Below are positions 9,390 through 38,027 of a stretch of DNA of 43,168 nucleotides, piece after piece. Position numbers and translations under genes: made by a program. Numbering within the stretch: the stretch's first letter is position 1; each line of letters opens with the position of its first letter. Source of the DNA: a virus; the IMG/VR virus record IMGVR_UViG_3300033388_001490, positions 1 through 43,168 of that record; one strand, 5' to 3'. The notes under the pieces are model-generated. The model was given only the letters and a program-made list of their open reading frames with translations, made no database searches and was not told the origin of the DNA.

Positions 9390-11267
9390 ATGAGTAAATA
9401 CTACGGCAATATAATAGAAGACGCGACGATAGAACTGGCATTCAATACGTTTGATTCTGACGGGGCAAGCGTCACGGTAACAGACCTTGCAACTACGGAT
9501 GTTGTAGTATATAAAGACGGCGCTATCTTATCTGACCCCGATGCCGGTGTTTCATTATCTCTTGATGTGGGCACTATCGTCGGTTCGCACTTAGTCATCA
9601 TTGATACAAGCGCCGATGCGGAATATGCAGTTGGTTCTAATTACGAGGTTAGACTTGTAGGGATTACCGTCAATGCCCAGACGCTTAATGTCTTTATTGG
9701 GTCGTTCTCTATCGAAAACCGAGTAGCACAAGACCCTAGTATAAAATCCAAGACTAAAGACGCAAATCTCAATGATTCCATAAAGAATGTCATAGATGTC
9801 ATTGAAAGTAACCGGCCGCATCATACTCATTTGTCGATAGGTAGTATTTTCTATGTCGACCCTGTCAATGGGGATACATACGGTAATGGTAATCGGGGCG
9901 GCATATCTGACCCTCTGTTGACGATACAAGATTGCCACGACAACCTTGTTACTGATTCTAACCATGATTTAATTATCTTAGTGCCGGGTGCGAGCGGGGG
10001 AGCGACAACCCACACAGTAGCTGCAACTACTACCTTAAGCAAGAGATATACATTTCTGCGTGGGCCGGGCAGGGATTTCATTATAACCCGCACAGGAAAC
10101 GGTGATACGATTGCTTGTACTGGGGAAGGCGTCGAAGTGTCGGGAGTGCAGATTGGCACTGCTGCAACGGGATCAGGTGACGGAATTGATATTACCGCTG
10201 ACTTTGCGTATATTCATAATTGCTGGATAAATGATACTCGGGGTAATGGAATCTTAATAAATCAAGCTGAAAATTGTATTATAGATGATAATCGTTTCCA
10301 AAATACAGGAGCGGGTGGAGCGGGAGATGGCGTACAGGTAAGCGGCACAGGTACATCATCGAGTAATAATGTAATCAGAAGAAATATCATGGAAGATGTT
10401 CAGGGTGACGGGATTAAGTTAGTTGGCGGTACGATTCTTGATACGATTATTCAGGGTAACACGATTCACGGTTCAACAGGATGGGGTATAAATATCGGAG
10501 CAGATTCGACTGATGCTTTTGTGTCTGGTAATAAGCTGGGTAATAATACTTCTGGGGATATTCAGGACAACGGTACAGATACCGTTAAATGCAATAATGA
10601 GCAATGGGGAACAGATGAACTCACCGCTGACGCTGTTTGGGATGAACTACTTACTGGTTCGCTGCATAATATAGCAACTTCAGCAGGTCGCAGACTAAGG
10701 CAAATAAACACCCCCGTACTATTAGATGGCACATCTCCTGATTCGGGCGGTACGGCTAATACAGCAACAAGAATTGAGCTTGATGGCGACGCAAGTGCTG
10801 TCGACGGGACTTATGACCCCGGGACAGTGAGCATTTACGAGGGAACTGGAGCAGGTCAATCAAGACAAATATTTGAGTATGACGGGTCTAATAAATACGC
10901 ATATATAAATCGCGATTGGAAGGTAATTCCCGATGACACCTCAAAATACATTGTTGTTGCAGGTGCTGGCGATACTCATATTAACGAAGGTGTGGCAACT
11001 GGCGGCGGTCCTAGTACAATAACGCTTAATACTTTAGCTGATAGCGTCAATGATGACGTATACAAAGGGCAAGTTGTCTTTATTGTTGCCGGTACGGGTC
11101 AGGATCAGGCCAATAGGGTTGCATCGTATGTCGCATCTACGAGGGTTGCCACAATGGACACGCCGTGGGTAGTTGAGCCTGTGGCCGGTAGTATTTATGC
11201 AATGTTGCCGATTCAAGGCGAGTTAATGCGAGGCACAGATAACGCACTAAAAGGTACTGTACTCTAA
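9390..11267 (+). CDS. Beta-helix virion protein with repeated C-domain
   Basis: A 625-residue probable fibre, spike or neck appendage. Residues 1-115 form a beta-sandwich-like N-domain (FNTFDSDGASVTVTDL) of a kind common at the start of phage appendage proteins. Residues ~145-400 are a right-handed parallel beta-helix with N/G-rich turns (RGNGILINQAENCIIDDN, NTIHGSTGWGINIG). Residues ~440-620 hold two related modules: IELDG...GTGAGQSRQIFEYDG...WKVIPDDTSKYIV and ITLNT...GTGQDQANRVASYV...WVVEPVAGSIYAM. Position before the tail terminator is unusual for a fibre. Binding target unknown. Confidence 0.75.
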   Translation: MSKYYGNIIEDATIELAFNTFDSDGASVTVTDLATTDVVVYKDGAILSDPDAGVSLSLDVGTIVGSHLVIIDTSADAEYAVGSNYEVRLVGITVNAQTLNVFIGSFSIENRVAQDPSIKSKTKDANLNDSIKNVIDVIESNRPHHTHLSIGSIFYVDPVNGDTYGNGNRGGISDPLLTIQDCHDNLVTDSNHDLIILVPGASGGATTHTVAATTTLSKRYTFLRGPGRDFIITRTGNGDTIACTGEGVEVSGVQIGTAATGSGDGIDITADFAYIHNCWINDTRGNGILINQAENCIIDDNRFQNTGAGGAGDGVQVSGTGTSSSNNVIRRNIMEDVQGDGIKLVGGTILDTIIQGNTIHGSTGWGINIGADSTDAFVSGNKLGNNTSGDIQDNGTDTVKCNNEQWGTDELTADAVWDELLTGSLHNIATSAGRRLRQINTPVLLDGTSPDSGGTANTATRIELDGDASAVDGTYDPGTVSIYEGTGAGQSRQIFEYDGSNKYAYINRDWKVIPDDTSKYIVVAGAGDTHINEGVATGGGPSTITLNTLADSVNDDVYKGQVVFIVAGTGQDQANRVASYVASTRVATMDTPWVVEPVAGSIYAMLPIQGELMRGTDNALKGTVL

Positions 11268-11282
11268 GAACGGAGATTTAAA

Positions 11283-13475
11283 ATGTCAGTTATAGATTTT
11301 GGATTATTTTTCGATAGTCACTTTGGAACTGCTTCTAATTCAGGCAGCGAGTGGTTTGAAGAGTCAGAGGTTGATCTTACGGCAGCAATGGTAGCTTTTA
11401 ATGCTGCTGTTGTGGACGTCATAATCAACGGCGGAGATTATGCTAATGTCGCACCTACTGATTATGGTCCAAATGGAAATAAGAATATGCAAGACGGCCA
11501 GACAGTTTTATACGATCATGGGACATATACAGATATAACTTCTGCTCCGAGATTCACCTGTATAGGGAACCATGATTTCGATCACACCGCAAATACTAAG
11601 GCAGACTTTATGACCGCCTTAAATCTGATAGCCAGTCCTGATGCAAACAGTGAATTATCAGAGGCGAACGGCGATAAAACTTATGGGTATTATGATATTG
11701 GAAATCTCAGGGTGTTTGTTTTGGATAGTGCGTTTAACTCAGTCGGTGGCGAATCTTCAAGCATCCCCTCTTATGTATCTAGTACAGAATTAGCATGGTT
11801 AGAGGATCATCTGACGATTGCAGACGCAGCGGGAAAGTGGTCAGTCATTTTCATGCACGTTCCACCAGTCGCTAAAGATTGCTCTGGAACCCATTTCGAG
11901 ATAAACGCTTACCTGGAGAATGCACTGGAATTTATGGCCGTATTAAATGGGCATAGAGTTGCGTGTGTTTCTGGAGGTCATCGCCACGGATTATACCACA
12001 GCCTTGCTGATGACACTTGTGTTGATATAAACGGCAAAAGAATACTCTTTAAACGTATGGGGCCATTGATACAAAGTGCTTCCAGCGAAAACGCAGGTTA
12101 CAGTATTTTGTCTGTCGATGACGTCACTGGTGAATGGTTTTATAGTGTCACTGGTAATGATGCTTACGAGCAGGGAGCTAGAGAGATAAGGTGGACGGGT
12201 GCAGTAGATGATGATCCTACGCAGGTAGGAAATTGGGATTATCGTAACAGTGCAGGTGCATGGGTTACCGTTGACACGCTTGATACTGACTTGAGTATTT
12301 TATTTGACGATGATTACATTGAAGGAGGCGGTGCAACATTTATTGAAGGTATTGAGTTCCGAGCATGGCAAGGCGGAGTTACTCAAATAGAGGTTATGAA
12401 CAACTGGACACTTCCCATCGGGGCTAAGGCGTCCAGTAATATCGGCTTTGCTACTGAGAGGATCGGGCTCATAAAGATTGCCGGTGCATTTGCTGGCAAT
12501 GTTAAAGAATCTGTGGACATTACATGGTTTAACGCCAGGCAAGGATATGGTGAAGTTCTTGTTAATGGAATTGCGGGAAACGGCGGTAAGTACATTCACA
12601 TTTCAAATAATAATGGCGAAGGAAATGCCAATTACGCATGGACCAGCGTTACCGTTGAATTACCAGACGACGATTACAAAGTAAGTTTCGAGGATAGCGA
12701 TGACGATCCTATGTCAATGCGGAATCTTGACTTAAGAGGTGGACGTGTGCTATTTATAGACGTTCATGGGAGAACAACTGATCCGAGCTTGGGTGGGGCT
12801 ACTATTTCTAAAGGAAGGTTGAGTTTCGTGAGAAGTGCTCTCGATGTTGCTATGGATACAGGTCCGATCATTCTCGCTGGTGGATCAGTAGATATAGTTG
12901 GGACCAACGCAGCAAACGGCGTTTATATTGAAAGCATTACGCACGTTAACACAAGCTTACAAAGTGGAATAGTGAAAGTTGGGTACATTACAGGTGCAGT
13001 AAATTTAACATACGGGGCGTACCAGCCAAACGGCACAGTTAGAACAGCAGCCGGTACGTCACTTGTCGAAGCTGCTGACTCGGGGTATTACTTTGCAGCC
13101 GATGCCGCACTTATAGCTGGCGATACGATTGTTGTGAAAGACGGTTCTACTTTTGTTACTGCTGGAATATATCAACCTGAATCTGTTGTCACTAATATTG
13201 ACGTTACCGCAGGAGTGATAGATCAAGTAGCCTTAGTGGATACCACTACAGAAAATACAGATATGGTCGGGACCGATGATGCGGCAACTGAAGACAAGCA
13301 AGATATTATAACTAACCTAATAGAAAGAGACGAAGTATTTGACCCGGCTGCCGGGACTGTCACTTATTTAGAAAAAGGCACGGAAAGCGAAATAGGAAAG
13401 AAAGACCTGAAAGACCCGGACGGAAACGCGGTTAATTCAACAGAAGACATTATAGTGGAATCGAGAGAAGCATGA
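11283..13475 (+). CDS. Virion-block metallophosphoesterase fusion
   Basis: A 730-residue protein. Residues 1-250 contain the whole calcineurin-like metal-site set in order: D11-S-H13, G51-D52, G95-NHD-98, H192 in MHVPP and G232-H-R-H235. It should bind two metals and cleave phosphodiester or phosphomonoester bonds. Residues ~300-730 are beta-rich and Gly/Thr-rich, like phage appendage proteins, and end in a charged tail (DLKDPDGNAVN). It lies between the beta-helix protein and the tail terminator, so a virion-borne enzyme is likely. Possible substrates include surface phosphopolymers, phospholipids and nucleic acids. Substrate is not predictable here. Confidence 0.82.
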   Translation: MSVIDFGLFFDSHFGTASNSGSEWFEESEVDLTAAMVAFNAAVVDVIINGGDYANVAPTDYGPNGNKNMQDGQTVLYDHGTYTDITSAPRFTCIGNHDFDHTANTKADFMTALNLIASPDANSELSEANGDKTYGYYDIGNLRVFVLDSAFNSVGGESSSIPSYVSSTELAWLEDHLTIADAAGKWSVIFMHVPPVAKDCSGTHFEINAYLENALEFMAVLNGHRVACVSGGHRHGLYHSLADDTCVDINGKRILFKRMGPLIQSASSENAGYSILSVDDVTGEWFYSVTGNDAYEQGAREIRWTGAVDDDPTQVGNWDYRNSAGAWVTVDTLDTDLSILFDDDYIEGGGATFIEGIEFRAWQGGVTQIEVMNNWTLPIGAKASSNIGFATERIGLIKIAGAFAGNVKESVDITWFNARQGYGEVLVNGIAGNGGKYIHISNNNGEGNANYAWTSVTVELPDDDYKVSFEDSDDDPMSMRNLDLRGGRVLFIDVHGRTTDPSLGGATISKGRLSFVRSALDVAMDTGPIILAGGSVDIVGTNAANGVYIESITHVNTSLQSGIVKVGYITGAVNLTYGAYQPNGTVRTAAGTSLVEAADSGYYFAADAALIAGDTIVVKDGSTFVTAGIYQPESVVTNIDVTAGVIDQVALVDTTTENTDMVGTDDAATEDKQDIITNLIERDEVFDPAAGTVTYLEKGTESEIGKKDLKDPDGNAVNSTEDIIVESREA

Positions 13476-27433: not shown

Positions 27434-28294
27434 TTAACTCCATAATTCACTCATCCCTAGACACGGGGAGTCATCTCTTTTTCTTGTACCACTTACCCAC
27501 CAATCCCAAAATCCTTGAGCGGAACCAAAATCCTCAAAGTATCGCCGTTTCCCTTGCTTTGTTGGCACCCCGCTCCATTTATCCCAAAATCTATCGAACG
27601 CCCTGCGCCATAGAAACTCATATCGAGGCCAACGGTCAAATCCGATTCTCTGTTGTCTTGCTCCTGCCATCGGACAACCGATACATCCTAGCCGATCAAA
27701 ACCCTCGCTGTAAAGGCAACAAGAGGACATTCTTTGATCTCGGTGGAAATCCCATACGTCCTTATCCGTCCAATATAAAATCGGGTTCACGATGCAAGTT
27801 TTGTTGTTGTTGTTATTGATTATTACTTGCTTCCATGCCTTTTTTCTACGAGGGCTTTCGGCTGCTCTAATCCCTAATATTTTCCATTGTTGATTGCCTG
27901 TGTTTTCTTTGTACTTTTCACAGCACCATCTCATTAGCCTAGTTGGGGGGCCTTTACAACTTGTATTTTCTACCATTTCAGTAAGAAGTGCCCTTGGTTG
28001 TCGATGAAAAGTCGCGTTGTAATTATCCTTGATATGTCGCACAAGCTCAGGAGGATCAAGTGTAGTTACTGAGTAATCCATTGTATGACGAATACCCGCA
28101 ATTTCTGCTAGTTTTGCTATAACCGCGGAATCCTTTCCACCTGAAAAAGCCAAGCAGTAACCATCATCCGACATATCTATCGCGTTGGATTCGTACTCTC
28201 CAATTAGCGAAATAGCCTTATCAATTTTAGTATTCAGTGGAATGTCATACGCTTGCTGGATGATCAGGTCGTCATTGAAAAGAAAATTACTCAT
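27434..28294 (-). CDS. PAPS-reductase-like PP-loop protein
   Basis: A 286-residue ATP-pyrophosphatase-fold protein. The PP-loop SGGKDS is at 51-56. A Cys-rich C-half (MRWCCEKYK, SSCCLYSEGFDRLGCIGCPMAG) could hold an iron-sulfur cluster as in DndC/CysH relatives. Family members act on sulfate activation products, tRNA thiolation or DNA phosphorothioation. No dnd partners are seen here, so the role is open; nucleic acid or nucleotide modification is the main alternative to sulfur assimilation. Coupled by ATGA to the replication-like gene. Confidence 0.8.
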   Translation of the reverse strand: MSNFLFNDDLIIQQAYDIPLNTKIDKAISLIGEYESNAIDMSDDGYCLAFSGGKDSAVIAKLAEIAGIRHTMDYSVTTLDPPELVRHIKDNYNATFHRQPRALLTEMVENTSCKGPPTRLMRWCCEKYKENTGNQQWKILGIRAAESPRRKKAWKQVIINNNNNKTCIVNPILYWTDKDVWDFHRDQRMSSCCLYSEGFDRLGCIGCPMAGARQQRIGFDRWPRYEFLWRRAFDRFWDKWSGVPTKQGKRRYFEDFGSAQGFWDWWVSGTRKRDDSPCLGMSELWS

Positions 28295-28995
28295 GCTGGT
28301 TTCCTATAATCAAACTCATCTTTCATTCTGGACATGAAAAGGGCTATTGGCTTGTCGCCTGTCTTCTTACATTCTTGCGCGACCCGCCAAGCCTTATCAA
28401 AAACTTTTTCATCCAGGGATTTCGATAAATGCTTTGCTACGTTTTGCAGTGTTGTTCTATCGGCTTTCTTTGCAACTCCAAATAACTTACTGGTAAGATC
28501 GTAGAATTTCAATTCTTCCGAAGCGACCGAAATACGAGATTTGTGAGAAAAAGACGAACCGCTCGTTTCGTTATTTCCATTATTCCCTTTGTTTTCGTTC
28601 GTTTCGTTATTATCATTATTGTTAGTGGTTGCTTGTTGGTTAGGCGTTGGTTGCTTGATGGTTGCTTGATGGTTATCTTGTTGGTTGTTGAGCGTTTTAT
28701 TTATATCATAAACCCTTGCGTCTGCTAGAGTTGCGATAGTTCCCTTGTTGGTTGCTTTGGTCGCTATAAAATTCCATTCCTCTAATTTAGATAAAGCCGT
28801 TCTGTATTGTTGCCTTGTGAGTCCGCAACTTTTATAATCTCCAATTAAAGCTTCACCTAGCTTTAGGCTGTGAATGTTAAAAGCGTCCGTCCGTCTTGCT
28901 CTAATGGCTATGATAGTCAGCAAAGCGAATGCGTTCGGATTTGATAATAAAGCTAAAGTGTCATCGGATCTTTTGAGCATTATATAAGTGTCCAT
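28291..28995 (-). CDS. Winged-helix replication-type protein
   Basis: A 234-residue protein. Residues 1-105 form a winged-helix-like domain (FALLTIIAIRARR, GEALIGDYKSCGLTRQQYRTALSKLEEWNFIATKATNKGTIATL). Residues ~108-145 are an Asn/Gln/Thr-rich linker, and a helical C-domain follows (LTSKLFGVAKKADRTTLQNVAKHLSKSLDEKVFDKAWRVAQECKKTGDKPIALFMSRM). The layout resembles phage replisome organiser and DnaD-like proteins. With no polymerase or helicase encoded, it probably recruits host replication proteins. A promoter lies upstream. Confidence 0.72.
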   Translation of the reverse strand: MDTYIMLKRSDDTLALLSNPNAFALLTIIAIRARRTDAFNIHSLKLGEALIGDYKSCGLTRQQYRTALSKLEEWNFIATKATNKGTIATLADARVYDINKTLNNQQDNHQATIKQPTPNQQATTNNNDNNETNENKGNNGNNETSGSSFSHKSRISVASEELKFYDLTSKLFGVAKKADRTTLQNVAKHLSKSLDEKVFDKAWRVAQECKKTGDKPIALFMSRMKDEFDYRKPA

Positions 28996-29118
28996 CGATT
29001 ACCTGCTAATGAAAAAAGACCGAAACAGGCTGCTTAGACACAACCACGATGGGGAATGTACCCGTTCCGATCTATAATTATTAGAGTTCAACTGTGATTG
29101 TATACTAAGCATATTTAT

Positions 29119-35132: not shown

Positions 35133-35624
35133 CTAAGGGAAATTCAATCTTGCAAACTCGCCATGGTATTTATTAGCTGCTGAGTCGTAAGCCGTCGCTG
35201 CTTTTATAAGGCAGGTAAATAAACCTAAATGAATAACTTTACCATCAAGACGTATCTGAGACCTCCATTTATTGGCGCCTTTCTCCCAGCAGACGCCTTT
35301 GAATCCGCATTTGTTATTTGCGTTAATCTTCCTGTTCTTTGCGTTTTCGGCTTGAGTACAATGACGTAAGTTGGACCGTTGGTTGTCAAGAGTGATGCCG
35401 TTTCGGTGGTCTATTTCTTTGCCATTGACGCTTCCCAAGATAGCAACGTGCATTAGTAATGTCGTCCATTTACCATTGGCCTTGATGCCGCGTTGGGCAT
35501 AAAGCTTGTTTTCCTTAGGTTCATGTGCGTGCCATTTATATTTATTAAGTTCTTCGCAGTCACTGTCGTCTACCAACGTGAATGTGTTTGGGAATTTCTT
35601 AGTACTGATGTCAATTTTCTTCAT
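35133..35624 (-). CDS. HNH homing-type endonuclease with AP2-like end
   Basis: A 163-residue nuclease: HNH core LLMHVAILG, EIDHRNGITLDNQRSNLRHCTQAENAKNR, then GFKGVCWEKGANKWRSQIRLDGKVIHLGLFTCLIKAATAYDSAANKYHG, an AP2-type DNA-binding motif. This pairing is typical of free-standing phage homing nucleases. GGAG lies seven bases before the ATG at 35624; the frame further up covers the structured leader and is not coding. It has its own promoter. Confidence 0.88.
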   Translation of the reverse strand: MKKIDISTKKFPNTFTLVDDSDCEELNKYKWHAHEPKENKLYAQRGIKANGKWTTLLMHVAILGSVNGKEIDHRNGITLDNQRSNLRHCTQAENAKNRKINANNKCGFKGVCWEKGANKWRSQIRLDGKVIHLGLFTCLIKAATAYDSAANKYHGEFARLNFP

Positions 35625-35644
35625 GGTAACTCCAATAAAAGAGC

Positions 35645-35726
35645 CAGCCGGAGTTGTTACGCAGTATGGGCTTGAACCCGGATTGCCTCCGGCTGACTTC
35701 AATTGATTGTTTTGTACTGCGTAACA
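35645..35726 (-). promoter_or_regulatory. Pseudoknotted leader of the HNH gene
   Basis: In minus order: TGTTACGCAGTA (35726-35715), CAGCCGGAG (35695-35687), hairpin GGG-TTCAAG-CCC, TACTGCGTAACA (35666-35655), then after one base CTCCGGCTG (35653-35645). The 12-bp and 9-bp stems are perfect and cross, forming an H-type pseudoknot with a one-base junction. CTCC of the last arm is complementary to the gene's GGAG ribosome site 21 bases further on, allowing a switch. The predicted transcription start lies at the first base. Confidence 0.65.
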
Positions 35727-35733
35727 TACCATA

Positions 35734-35761
35734 AGTATAACCGATATTTCTGGAAAGTCAA
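35734..35761 (-). promoter_or_regulatory. Promoter of the HNH leader
   Basis: TTGACT (35761-35756), 16-base spacer, TATACT (35739-35734) on the minus strand, with the shared extension TTGACTTT and GTTATACTTAT also found in the main early promoter at 37905-37932. Start predicted near 35727. Confidence 0.7.
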
Positions 35762-35935
35762 CTAATTTTATTATTATTCTAAAGGGTGGCCGAAACTGTG
35801 AGGCCGCAGCCACCTGATCTATTAACGGTACTACCCTTTTATGAGGCACTATGCTAGTTAGGCATGATTGCTGCACTCCTTTCGGTTAAGGTCAATAATG
35901 CCCGTCTCTCCGGGCTGTCACGGTTGGCTTTTGTT

Positions 35936-35972
35936 TCGGACTTTCTACCGTTTCTGTCCGACCCTTGGTAGA
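35936..35972 (-). ncRNA. Compact H-type pseudoknot in the large RNA
   Basis: TCTACC (35972-35967), TCGGAC (35961-35956), GGTAGA (35949-35944), GTCCGA (35941-35936). First pairs with third, second with fourth; both stems are 6 bp and perfect, with loops of 5, 6 and 2 bases. Part of the 35780-36430 element. Confidence 0.6.
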
Positions 35973-36033
35973 CATTTAGAGACCGTCTTGAAGGATGAAA
36001 CCATCCAGTCTTTTCGTGAGCTTTCACTCAATG

Positions 36034-36106
36034 TCCTCGGCTGGACTCGAACCAGCAACCGTTTCTAATGGGATTAAGAAAGCTCTACCATTTGAGTTAC
36101 GAGGAC
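36034..36106 (-). tRNA. tRNA-like cloverleaf, abnormal anticodon loop
   Basis: Acceptor stem GTCCTCG / CGAGGAC is perfect 7 bp with discriminator A; T arm GCTGG-TTCGAGT-CCAGC is canonical; the D arm has three pairs plus an A-C mismatch with loop AAATGGTA. The anticodon stem TTTCT / AGAAA closes a loop of 10 bases (TAATCCCATT) instead of 7, so no anticodon can be assigned. CCA is not encoded. It may be a decayed tRNA, a tRNA mimic within the large RNA, or a tRNA with an unusual loop. Confidence 0.7.
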
Positions 36107-36435
36107 GGGTGGGGCAGGCAATGTTACAGCAGTGTCTTTTATTGGCTAGCCTTCGCTGTAGAACACGTCACTGCCCCATATTAACTTATTCAAAGAACTG
36201 CACGGCGGGCAGGCTATTCGTGTTCCCGTATTCCGGCAATGTTACGCCGCTTACCGGCTTATAGACACTGCCACGCCGTGCTATATCCATTGTCGGGGCA
36301 GGATTCCCCACTCTGCACCTAAAGCCGTTCTGAACTTGAACAATGCAAGCTAGGCAGTTGCAAAGCACTTGGTTCTGGCCTCGTCCGTTCCTTACCCGAC
36401 GCTACCACGCCGCCCGATAATGGGATATATCTGTT

Positions 36436-36463
36436 ATTCTATTGTCTTAAAGAGCCTGCTCAA
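36436..36463 (-). promoter_or_regulatory. Promoter of the large RNA
   Basis: TTGAGC (36463-36458), 16-base spacer, TAGAAT (36441-36436) on the minus strand. The start is predicted at about 36429, the first base of the long 5' stem. Confidence 0.55.
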
Positions 36464-36480
36464 GAGAAGATGGGCGGGGG

Positions 36481-36633
36481 TTAGGCTGGTTTTGCTTTCA
36501 TAAGCTGACAGGCAGGCATTTCTGGCAATCTGAAAATTGACTCTGGGTTGACGCCACATAAAGGATCGAACCCCTCTATTTGACTATGAAAAGCACAATC
36601 TTTACACTTGGGATGTTCTTTCGGTTCATTCAT
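36481..36633 (-). CDS. Cys-rich mini-protein, 50 aa
   Basis: MNEPKEHPKCKDCAFHSQIE start (CxxC), then PLCGVNP and PACQLMK, four Cys in a zinc-knuckle spacing. GGAG lies nine bases before the ATG. Last gene before the noncoding region. Unknown function. Confidence 0.62.
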   Translation of the reverse strand: MNEPKEHPKCKDCAFHSQIEGFDPLCGVNPESIFRLPEMPACQLMKAKPA

Positions 36634-37883: not shown

Positions 37884-37912
37884 TTGACTTGTCTTACTAT
37901 AATAAGTATAAC
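37884..37912 (+). promoter_or_regulatory. Rightward promoter in the divergent region
   Basis: TTGACT (37884-37889), 17-base spacer, TATAAC (37907-37912) on the plus strand, start near 37919. Its -10 shares bases with the -10 of the leftward promoter, so the two probably cannot be used at once. Confidence 0.55.
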
Positions 37913-37932
37913 ACGTACTTCGTCAAAGTCAA
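37905..37932 (-). promoter_or_regulatory. Main early (leftward) promoter
   Basis: TTGACT (37932-37927), 16-base spacer, TATACT (37910-37905) on the minus strand. Near-consensus and the strongest in the window by eye. Start near 37898, about 40 bases before the first early gene. Confidence 0.75.
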
Positions 37933-38027
37933 TTAAAAACTTGATAAATTTTCAAGGTTTTTTATAAATAAACATAAATAGCCCCTCACGATACCGAAAA
38001 GGGCGATAAATAATAATAAATAATTGT

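Follow-up and report, generated by a model that had tools for sequence, protein, structure and literature searches.

The DNA analysed here, referred to as the window, is the 43,168-base virus record IMGVR_UViG_3300033388_001490, which includes a terminase large subunit gene. Its minus strand encodes an HNH-AP2 endonuclease (Table 1), a protein of 163 aa that scores 30.7 bits with Pfam HNH_3, over the cut-off, and 30.2 bits with AP2, under the cut-off of 33.3, and that matches the PHROG HNH endonuclease at 2.7e-39. Directly ahead of this gene, on the same strand, lies the element under study. A preliminary description had taken it for the 5′ leader of the HNH gene and had proposed two long stems that cross with a one-base junction, and both points were borne out on the minus strand. 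All 12 pairs of the first stem, S1, are Watson-Crick. The second stem, S2, also has 12 pairs, 11 of them Watson-Crick (nine in one run) and one U-G, so that of the lengths given before, 12 and 9 bp, only the first stands. The two stems cross, with a single base (35654) between their 3′ arms. Here the earlier account was right, however, it had overlooked the GGG/CCC hairpin within loop 2.

The transcript should start at about 35727, which lies 7 bases past a sigma-70-type promoter and one base ahead of S1. This position comes from a promoter scan and agrees with the start at S1 predicted before; in the 6 kb around the element the scan gave 16 promoter-like sites, as compared to 10.8 by chance. 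Behind S2 follow CTTTTATT, GGAG and, 17 nt beyond S2, the ATG. S2 (-26.6) together with CTTTTATT has the parts by which a terminator is recognised, a G+C-rich stem and a U-tract at once behind it, and a U-tract in this place speaks for transcription termination no less than for translation. The S2 loop of 33 nt is long for an intrinsic terminator, and S2 is missing from the output of a simple terminator scan, which allows loops of 3-8 nt only.

Table 1. Features of the HNH-AP2 leader and its surroundings in the window
Feature	Position	Strand	Basis or remark
HNH-AP2 endonuclease gene, 163 aa	35133..35624	minus	profile and PHROG matches
Sigma-70-type promoter TTGACT-16-TATACT	35734..35761	minus	scan, 10/12 consensus; within the aligned L046 stretch
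S1 5′ arm TGTTACGCAGTA, at the start of the predicted transcript	35715..35726	minus	4/12 S1 pairs changed on both sides, five leaders
Loop 1, 16 nt, A-rich	35699..35714	minus	
S2 5′ arm AGTCAGCCGGAG	35687..35698	minus	5/12 S2 pairs changed on both sides, five leaders
Loop 2, 20 nt, holds a small hairpin	35667..35686	minus	
Loop-2 hairpin GGG(TTCAAG)CCC, three pairs	35668-35679	minus	pairs kept in 5/5 close leaders
S1 3′ arm TACTGCGTAACA	35655..35666	minus	
S2 3′ arm CTCCGGCTGGCT, one base past S1	35642..35653	minus	
U-rich tract CTTTTATT, terminator-like, abuts S2	35634..35641	minus	sequence
Shine-Dalgarno GGAG	35630..35633	minus	sequence
Alternative hairpin burying the Shine-Dalgarno if S2 is open	35625..35649	minus	predicted fold, -9.3 kcal/mol
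Second leader of the same build	29017..29103	minus	0/2000 shuffles as good; U-tract and ATG follow

Conservation and apparent movement of the leader

A gene 2 kb from the element led us to L046, which is part of a 46,971-base record. Positions 10775-10937 of L046 share 77% DNA identity with the promoter and leader of the window, and this leader of the same type precedes another HNH-AP2 gene, where HNH_3 and AP2 are both under their cut-offs. Promoter, leader and HNH gene of L046 make up a 645-nt insert (10781-11425), the flanks of which are homologues of two window genes that lie 8 nt apart. Because they are inserted between homologues of adjacent window genes, promoter, leader and gene appear to move together. 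The leader also appears to have been exchanged between nucleases, since the HNH proteins behind these alike leaders are just 40% identical; L046's record encodes two further HNH-AP2 proteins that are nearer to the window protein (53% and 50-52%), and these have other leaders.

Paired changes are already present among three leaders, where 6 of 27 pairs are changed on both sides and 96.3% of 81 cells are paired. In an alignment of five partly related leaders (that of the window, two in G022, one in G021 and one in G013), both-side changes affect 9 of 27 pairs, counted in cells 15 of 135, with 96.3% of the cells paired, and none of 500 shuffles reached these values. Control alignments in which the leaders were slid had at most 5 pairs with a change on both sides. 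The count of further pair types was not above shuffles (75/500 for five leaders, 207/500 for three). The 5 of 135 cells that do not pair belong to the terminal pairs of the two stems, and the GCAATYCGGG part of loop 2 is almost invariant across the five. Arms conserved as pairs in homologues had been proposed beforehand as a check on the element, and they were found, each of the two stems having pairs changed on both sides.

A search model containing S2 and the hairpin, with the S1 pairs left out, was run on 623,165 bases from 98 sources chosen among the loci. It returned ten places: the five parents and five outside the alignment (E 4e-7, 0.0029, 0.0075, 0.051 and 0.7). Both S1 and S2 pair in all five extra places, with 0/500 shuffles as good in four of them and 1/500 in the weakest, and a start codon follows four of the five. 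The copy at L270:4994-5103, which neither an HNH gene nor a ribosome site follows, keeps its pairs; it falls within the opening codons of a long frame of a different kind. We regard it as nearly certain that a conserved crossing RNA fold exists in the leader.

It is highly improbable that the pseudoknot arose by chance or reflects coding constraint from a longer HNH frame passing through the leader. Such a frame is indeed open (247 aa in the window, 199 aa in L046), however, the leader differences between window and L046 number 7, 6 and 8 on the three codon positions, and a reading frame through the leader was rejected for this absence of bias. The S1-to-ATG lengths of 102, 105, 105, 105 and 100 also break the frame. 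Chance is opposed by the paired changes in relatives, where so few cells break a pair, and by shuffling. On a simplified, reduced stacking-energy table of our own, used for ranking only, the leader's crossing pair reaches -48.1 and the best among 5000 leader shuffles -39.3, so that none matched it (0/5000). A whole-window energy scan gave -38.7 for the next independent crossing pair and a peak of -35.9 in four shuffled windows, and in a Watson-Crick-only scan 21 bp in crossing stems was the window maximum, with 60 dinucleotide shuffles of the window peaking at 15-20. The non-crossing fold of the last 110 upstream bases has a z of -3.3 already, and a wider fold of the plus strand, the wrong strand, is unremarkable (z -0.55). 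Some scripts drew new random seeds from one run to the next.

Matches by primary sequence were few. A 21-base part of the element had no exact match in the viral contigs, where a looser pattern gave four stretches, one of them the L046 record; the other three lie inside long coding frames with the arms absent and were taken as chance. A DNA search of named phages returned only E-values of 2 or worse. Out of 1055 named-phage HNH records found, 11 loci were examined, and the leader was found in none of these 11: eight genes overlap the gene upstream or come no more than 12 nt after it, and in the three with a gap the crossing pairs are ordinary (z 0.2 to 1.2).

Leaders of other HNH-AP2 genes and of non-HNH genes

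HNH relatives from viral contigs (80 of 507 kept) and from genomes (74) made 154 loci. Twelve were excluded because the match was incomplete or the DNA upstream too short, and six for want of a start codon, leaving 136, which with three leaders of our own gave 139 upstream regions, among which L062 duplicates the L051 gene. A crossing pair with z below -4 was present in 20 of the 139 regions (18 distinct arm pairs) versus 1 of 129 first controls, which often overlap coding DNA; counted as at most 1/100 shuffles as good, the figures were 21/139 and 7/129. A fairer control set (n=32) includes two regions that carry the element itself ahead of non-HNH genes. The same leader ahead of other HNH-AP2 genes, which had also been suggested as a check, was thus found both in L046 and in the survey.

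Eighteen of the 20 strong leaders have 12-26 nt between the end of the last stem and the ATG. At least 5 T occur in the 8 bases after S2 in 13 of the 20, compared with 3.2% at the same distances in fold-less HNH leaders; the remaining seven have fewer than 5, three of these with 0-2. A terminator-like stem with a U-tract before the ATG was found in 24/139 HNH-AP2 regions versus 3/129 controls. Strong cases are concentrated where the upstream space allows: by a crude gap rule they number 13 among the 51 regions offering 80 or more free bases, 3 among the 75 crowded by an upstream frame and 1 among the 10 in between. The gene lies within 40 nt of an upstream frame, with no room for a leader, in 75 of 136 cases, and our own scan found no strong pseudoknot in 38 of the 51 regions with room. 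Several strong leaders have, by eye, another promoter type, TAnnTTTG, which we take to be Bacteroidetes-like, with S1 again just downstream. In L060, L085, L066 and L109, S2 is a terminator hairpin whose 8-nt loop pairs with an upstream stretch, and the arms of L060 and L085 are identical.

Sister HNH-AP2 genes carry an RNA that is already in Rfam. int-alpA (RF02996), which Rfam types as an sRNA, is the leader of the third HNH-AP2 gene of G013 (L051; 52.2 bits, cut-off 35.8) and also stands right before HNH-AP2 genes in G016 (48.7 bits) and G018 (41.9 bits); int-alpA-led HNH genes were found in 3 of the 20 HNH records searched. The genes with this leader include L058, the closest HNH relative (64% identity), and L104. 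It also precedes the L215 gene, from another HNH family with a PHROG HNH match and no Pfam HNH. In one bacterial class it occurs in 39 of 369 genomes, and by simple count 31 of the 37 loci read (L212-L218, L220-L249) have, 5-28 nt past it, the ATG of a frame of 60 aa or more, 26 of these 31 at 14-25 nt and one cut by a contig end. An Rfam RNA is now placed directly before start codons, and by position int-alpA is probably a 5′ leader. By eye, several of these loci have a small hairpin at the ribosome site. The accessible part of PMC12370729 merely lists the name int-alpA, and we found no description of its role in the literature searched.

int-alpA resembles the window element in being a compact, leader-sized RNA right ahead of sister HNH-AP2 genes. 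Read from the sequences, an int-alpA loop can pair downstream in a crossing fashion, a pairing that the Rfam structure line does not mark, and by this reading the two elements would share a structured, seemingly crossing fold before the ribosome site. They differ in that int-alpA has two hairpins inside an 8-bp stem, whereas the window has two crossing 12-bp stems. No int-alpA match was found in 35560-36500 (E up to 10) or in the window record (E up to 0.1), and the window element is not a member of int-alpA. The int-alpA leaders score weakly in our scan (z -1.1 for L058), therefore the scan misses some crossing leaders.

The build is also found ahead of other kinds of genes. A scan for a pseudoknot followed by a U-tract, a ribosome site and an ATG, covering 15 pieces of eight virus records, the L046 locus and the window, gave 20 places versus 2 in shuffles. 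Among the best 15 of these 20, nine precede HNH-AP2 genes (some under a Pfam cut-off) and one, in L263, precedes an HNH gene of another family, PF01844. At L270:7919 the frame starts HNH-AP2-like, continues differently and has no Pfam match. The other four stand before other genes: L270:1772, L265:4575 (HTH_36, weak DnaD_N), L046:18033 and window 28995, where the gene behind the second leader of Table 1 (28291-28995, minus) encodes 234 aa. Some of the five weaker places probably arose by chance, and L046:6420, a short-stemmed leader of an HNH gene, is also among them. Because the same build precedes non-HNH genes, including two of the 32 fair controls, the leader is best described from these comparisons as an expression module of these phages that is often used by HNH cassettes and is not HNH-specific. 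L270:7919 and L270:4994-5103 are perhaps remnants of lost cassettes. On the minus strand of L046, a ribosome site followed by ATGAAGTAG, a two-codon frame, lies at 6982-6962, upstream of a weaker pseudoknot leader (6939-6848).

A putative attenuator and its alternatives

The order of promoter, crossing stems, U-tract and start codon is kept by paired changes and moves with the gene, as judged by sequence comparison. We hypothesize, with a probability of roughly one half, that the leader is an intrinsic-terminator-like attenuator built of S2 and the U-tract. It would stand between promoter and gene, with the 5′ end of the transcript (S1) pairing into the S2 loop. S1 would be complete before the last S2 arm is made, therefore the 5′ end would already be threaded through the terminator loop when polymerase stops or goes on. 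Most polymerases would stop at S2 and the U-tract, freeing a knotted RNA of ~95 nt, and those reading through would make the HNH mRNA; the endonuclease would be scarce because most polymerases would stop at the attenuator. Whatever alters S1 or loop 2, such as a protein or the speed of polymerase, could shift this choice. Termination cannot be the whole story, because of the seven strong leaders with fewer than 5 T of 8, and some members may have a second layer in which opening of S2 lets its free arm cover the ribosome site.

That layer could also be the entire mechanism. In a translational switch without termination, the closed pseudoknot would leave the ribosome site free, the 3′ arm of an open S2 would bury it, and the U-tract would be no more than standby space for the ribosome, a reading we consider possible though doubtful. 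Folds were predicted for 16 leaders, one of them lacking a recognisable Shine-Dalgarno, and a site was counted as buried at a cut of 3 paired bases and -4 kcal/mol. A closed pseudoknot buries the site in one leader and an open S2 in eight, including that of the window, and a ribosome site mostly free in the pseudoknot would also suit a translation 'on' state. In 18 of 20 leaders the distance from the end of the pseudoknot to the ATG is 12-26 nt, close to where a ribosome footprint has its edge. The burying fold is absent, however, in half of the 16, and the enrichment of U-tracts is left unexplained. A switch at the ribosome site had been proposed before in the form of the CTCC arm pairing with GGAG. 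This pairing is possible in 3 of the 5 closest leaders, two with a wobble, and its bases are already in S2; it is not conserved, and in this form the idea is not supported. The idea survives as the alternative fold with the S2 3′ arm over the Shine-Dalgarno (8/16), though not for all members. The accessible part of PMC3014915 describes structured leaders that restrict the translation of homing endonucleases.

The RNA could instead be a product in its own right, from a free small RNA gene of ~95 nt that is bounded by its own signals, promoter and terminator, and that the HNH gene would simply follow. Such an RNA would act in trans, possibly by partnering the encoded protein. It has its own promoter, a compact fold and a terminator-like end, L270:4994-5103 keeps the pairs with neither HNH gene nor ribosome site behind, and int-alpA, which stands ahead of sister genes, is an Rfam sRNA. 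This seems unlikely to us given a start codon 12-26 nt downstream in 18/20 leaders and other protein kinds following the same build. In a particular form of the idea, the knotted ~95-nt RNA released at the terminator would act with or against the HNH-AP2 protein, as a guide-like cofactor or a brake; the layout of promoter, pseudoknot RNA, terminator and nuclease resembles that of IscB or type III toxin-antitoxin pairs. We think this improbable; were it true, one would take L270:4994-5103 for a remnant or for an RNA on its own. Similarly improbable is a 5′ stabiliser or insulator, a paired 5′ end that protects the mRNA and blocks upstream ribosomes or read-through with no switching. S1 does start close behind the promoter in close leaders, however, such a device needs neither S2, crossing nor a U-tract, all of which are kept or enriched.

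Several known RNAs were considered and rejected. The tRNA T-loop motif is GTTCRANNC, and a T-arm motif in the loop-2 hairpin, GGGTTCAAGCCC, raised the idea of a tRNA-like element. The motif is confined to the window and lost in four close relatives, the hairpin loops of the five leaders being TTCAAG, CGAAAG, TGAAAG, CTCGCG and TGCAAG, and a standard run called no tRNA at the element. In an HDV-like ribozyme the two 3′ arms are separated by P4 and a catalytic strand; here there is one base between the arms and no P4 region, the predicted start is at S1 and there is no Rfam match, and an HDV-like or other self-cleaving ribozyme was set aside. An IscB/HEARO system was rejected on a 163-aa protein with only HNH_3 and weak AP2 in Pfam and on the lack of an Rfam match. 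Type III toxin-antitoxin loci have tandem pseudoknot repeats ahead of a ToxN-type RNase, whereas the window has a single element with an HNH gene behind.

Other phage and bacterial leaders are closer in kind. In T4 I-TevI, Aeh1 mobE and T4 segB, structured leaders hold, or are thought to hold, endonuclease translation down by covering the ribosome site (PMC3014915, accessible part), whereas the window pseudoknot is followed by a U-tract and ends before a site that is predicted to be mostly free. The mRNA leader of T4 gene 32 likewise holds a pseudoknot, to which gp32 binds and which lies 67 nt ahead of the start codon (PMC3014915, accessible part), while the window leader has no known protein and lies nearer its ATG (17 nt). 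The HMP-PP (thiS) riboswitch has its aptamer embedded in a terminator stem, with a possible pseudoknot, as set out in the accessible part of PMC6478431, and thus shares with the putative attenuator a regulatory fold within a terminator stem. It differs in that the partner strand in the window is the transcript 5′ end, the genes are phage rather than thiamin genes and no ligand is known.

Together these comparisons suggest an undescribed RNA control element travelling with selfish phage genes. We found no description of such a leader in the literature searched, most subscription papers and preprints falling outside it, which is weak evidence of novelty. Free-standing homing endonuclease genes need enough expression to spread and little enough not to harm the phage, and a defined leader, promoter included, appears to travel with them. 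Each pair offers a mutant-and-rescue test, therefore control of these selfish genes is testable.

Other sequences near the element

A second promoter at 37902-37936 (minus) is 77% identical over 35 nt to the HNH-leader promoter; behind it, the whole-window scan list has no crossing pair of -30 or better. Within 35956-36019 (minus), ~50-60 bases are 84-93% identical to mostly unannotated stretches of Schitoviridae and of four viral contigs. The Schitoviridae matches are in RiverRider and Pokken, inside tRNA gene clusters, and also in PB119. This stretch is probably a conserved non-coding RNA; it has no Rfam match over the gathering score, and crossing CTACC/GGTAG and CGGAC/GTCCG stems can be seen by eye. 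At 36110-36281 (minus), adjoining a tRNA-Gly(ccc) gene (36032-36106), there are closed, tRNA-sized stems, GGGGCAG..CTGCCCC and GCACGGCG..CGCCGTGC, which a standard ARAGORN run does not call as tRNAs. The RiverRider and Pokken tRNA clusters (L002, L003) have long gaps with stretches that by eye are alike in both, and these are perhaps unknown RNAs.
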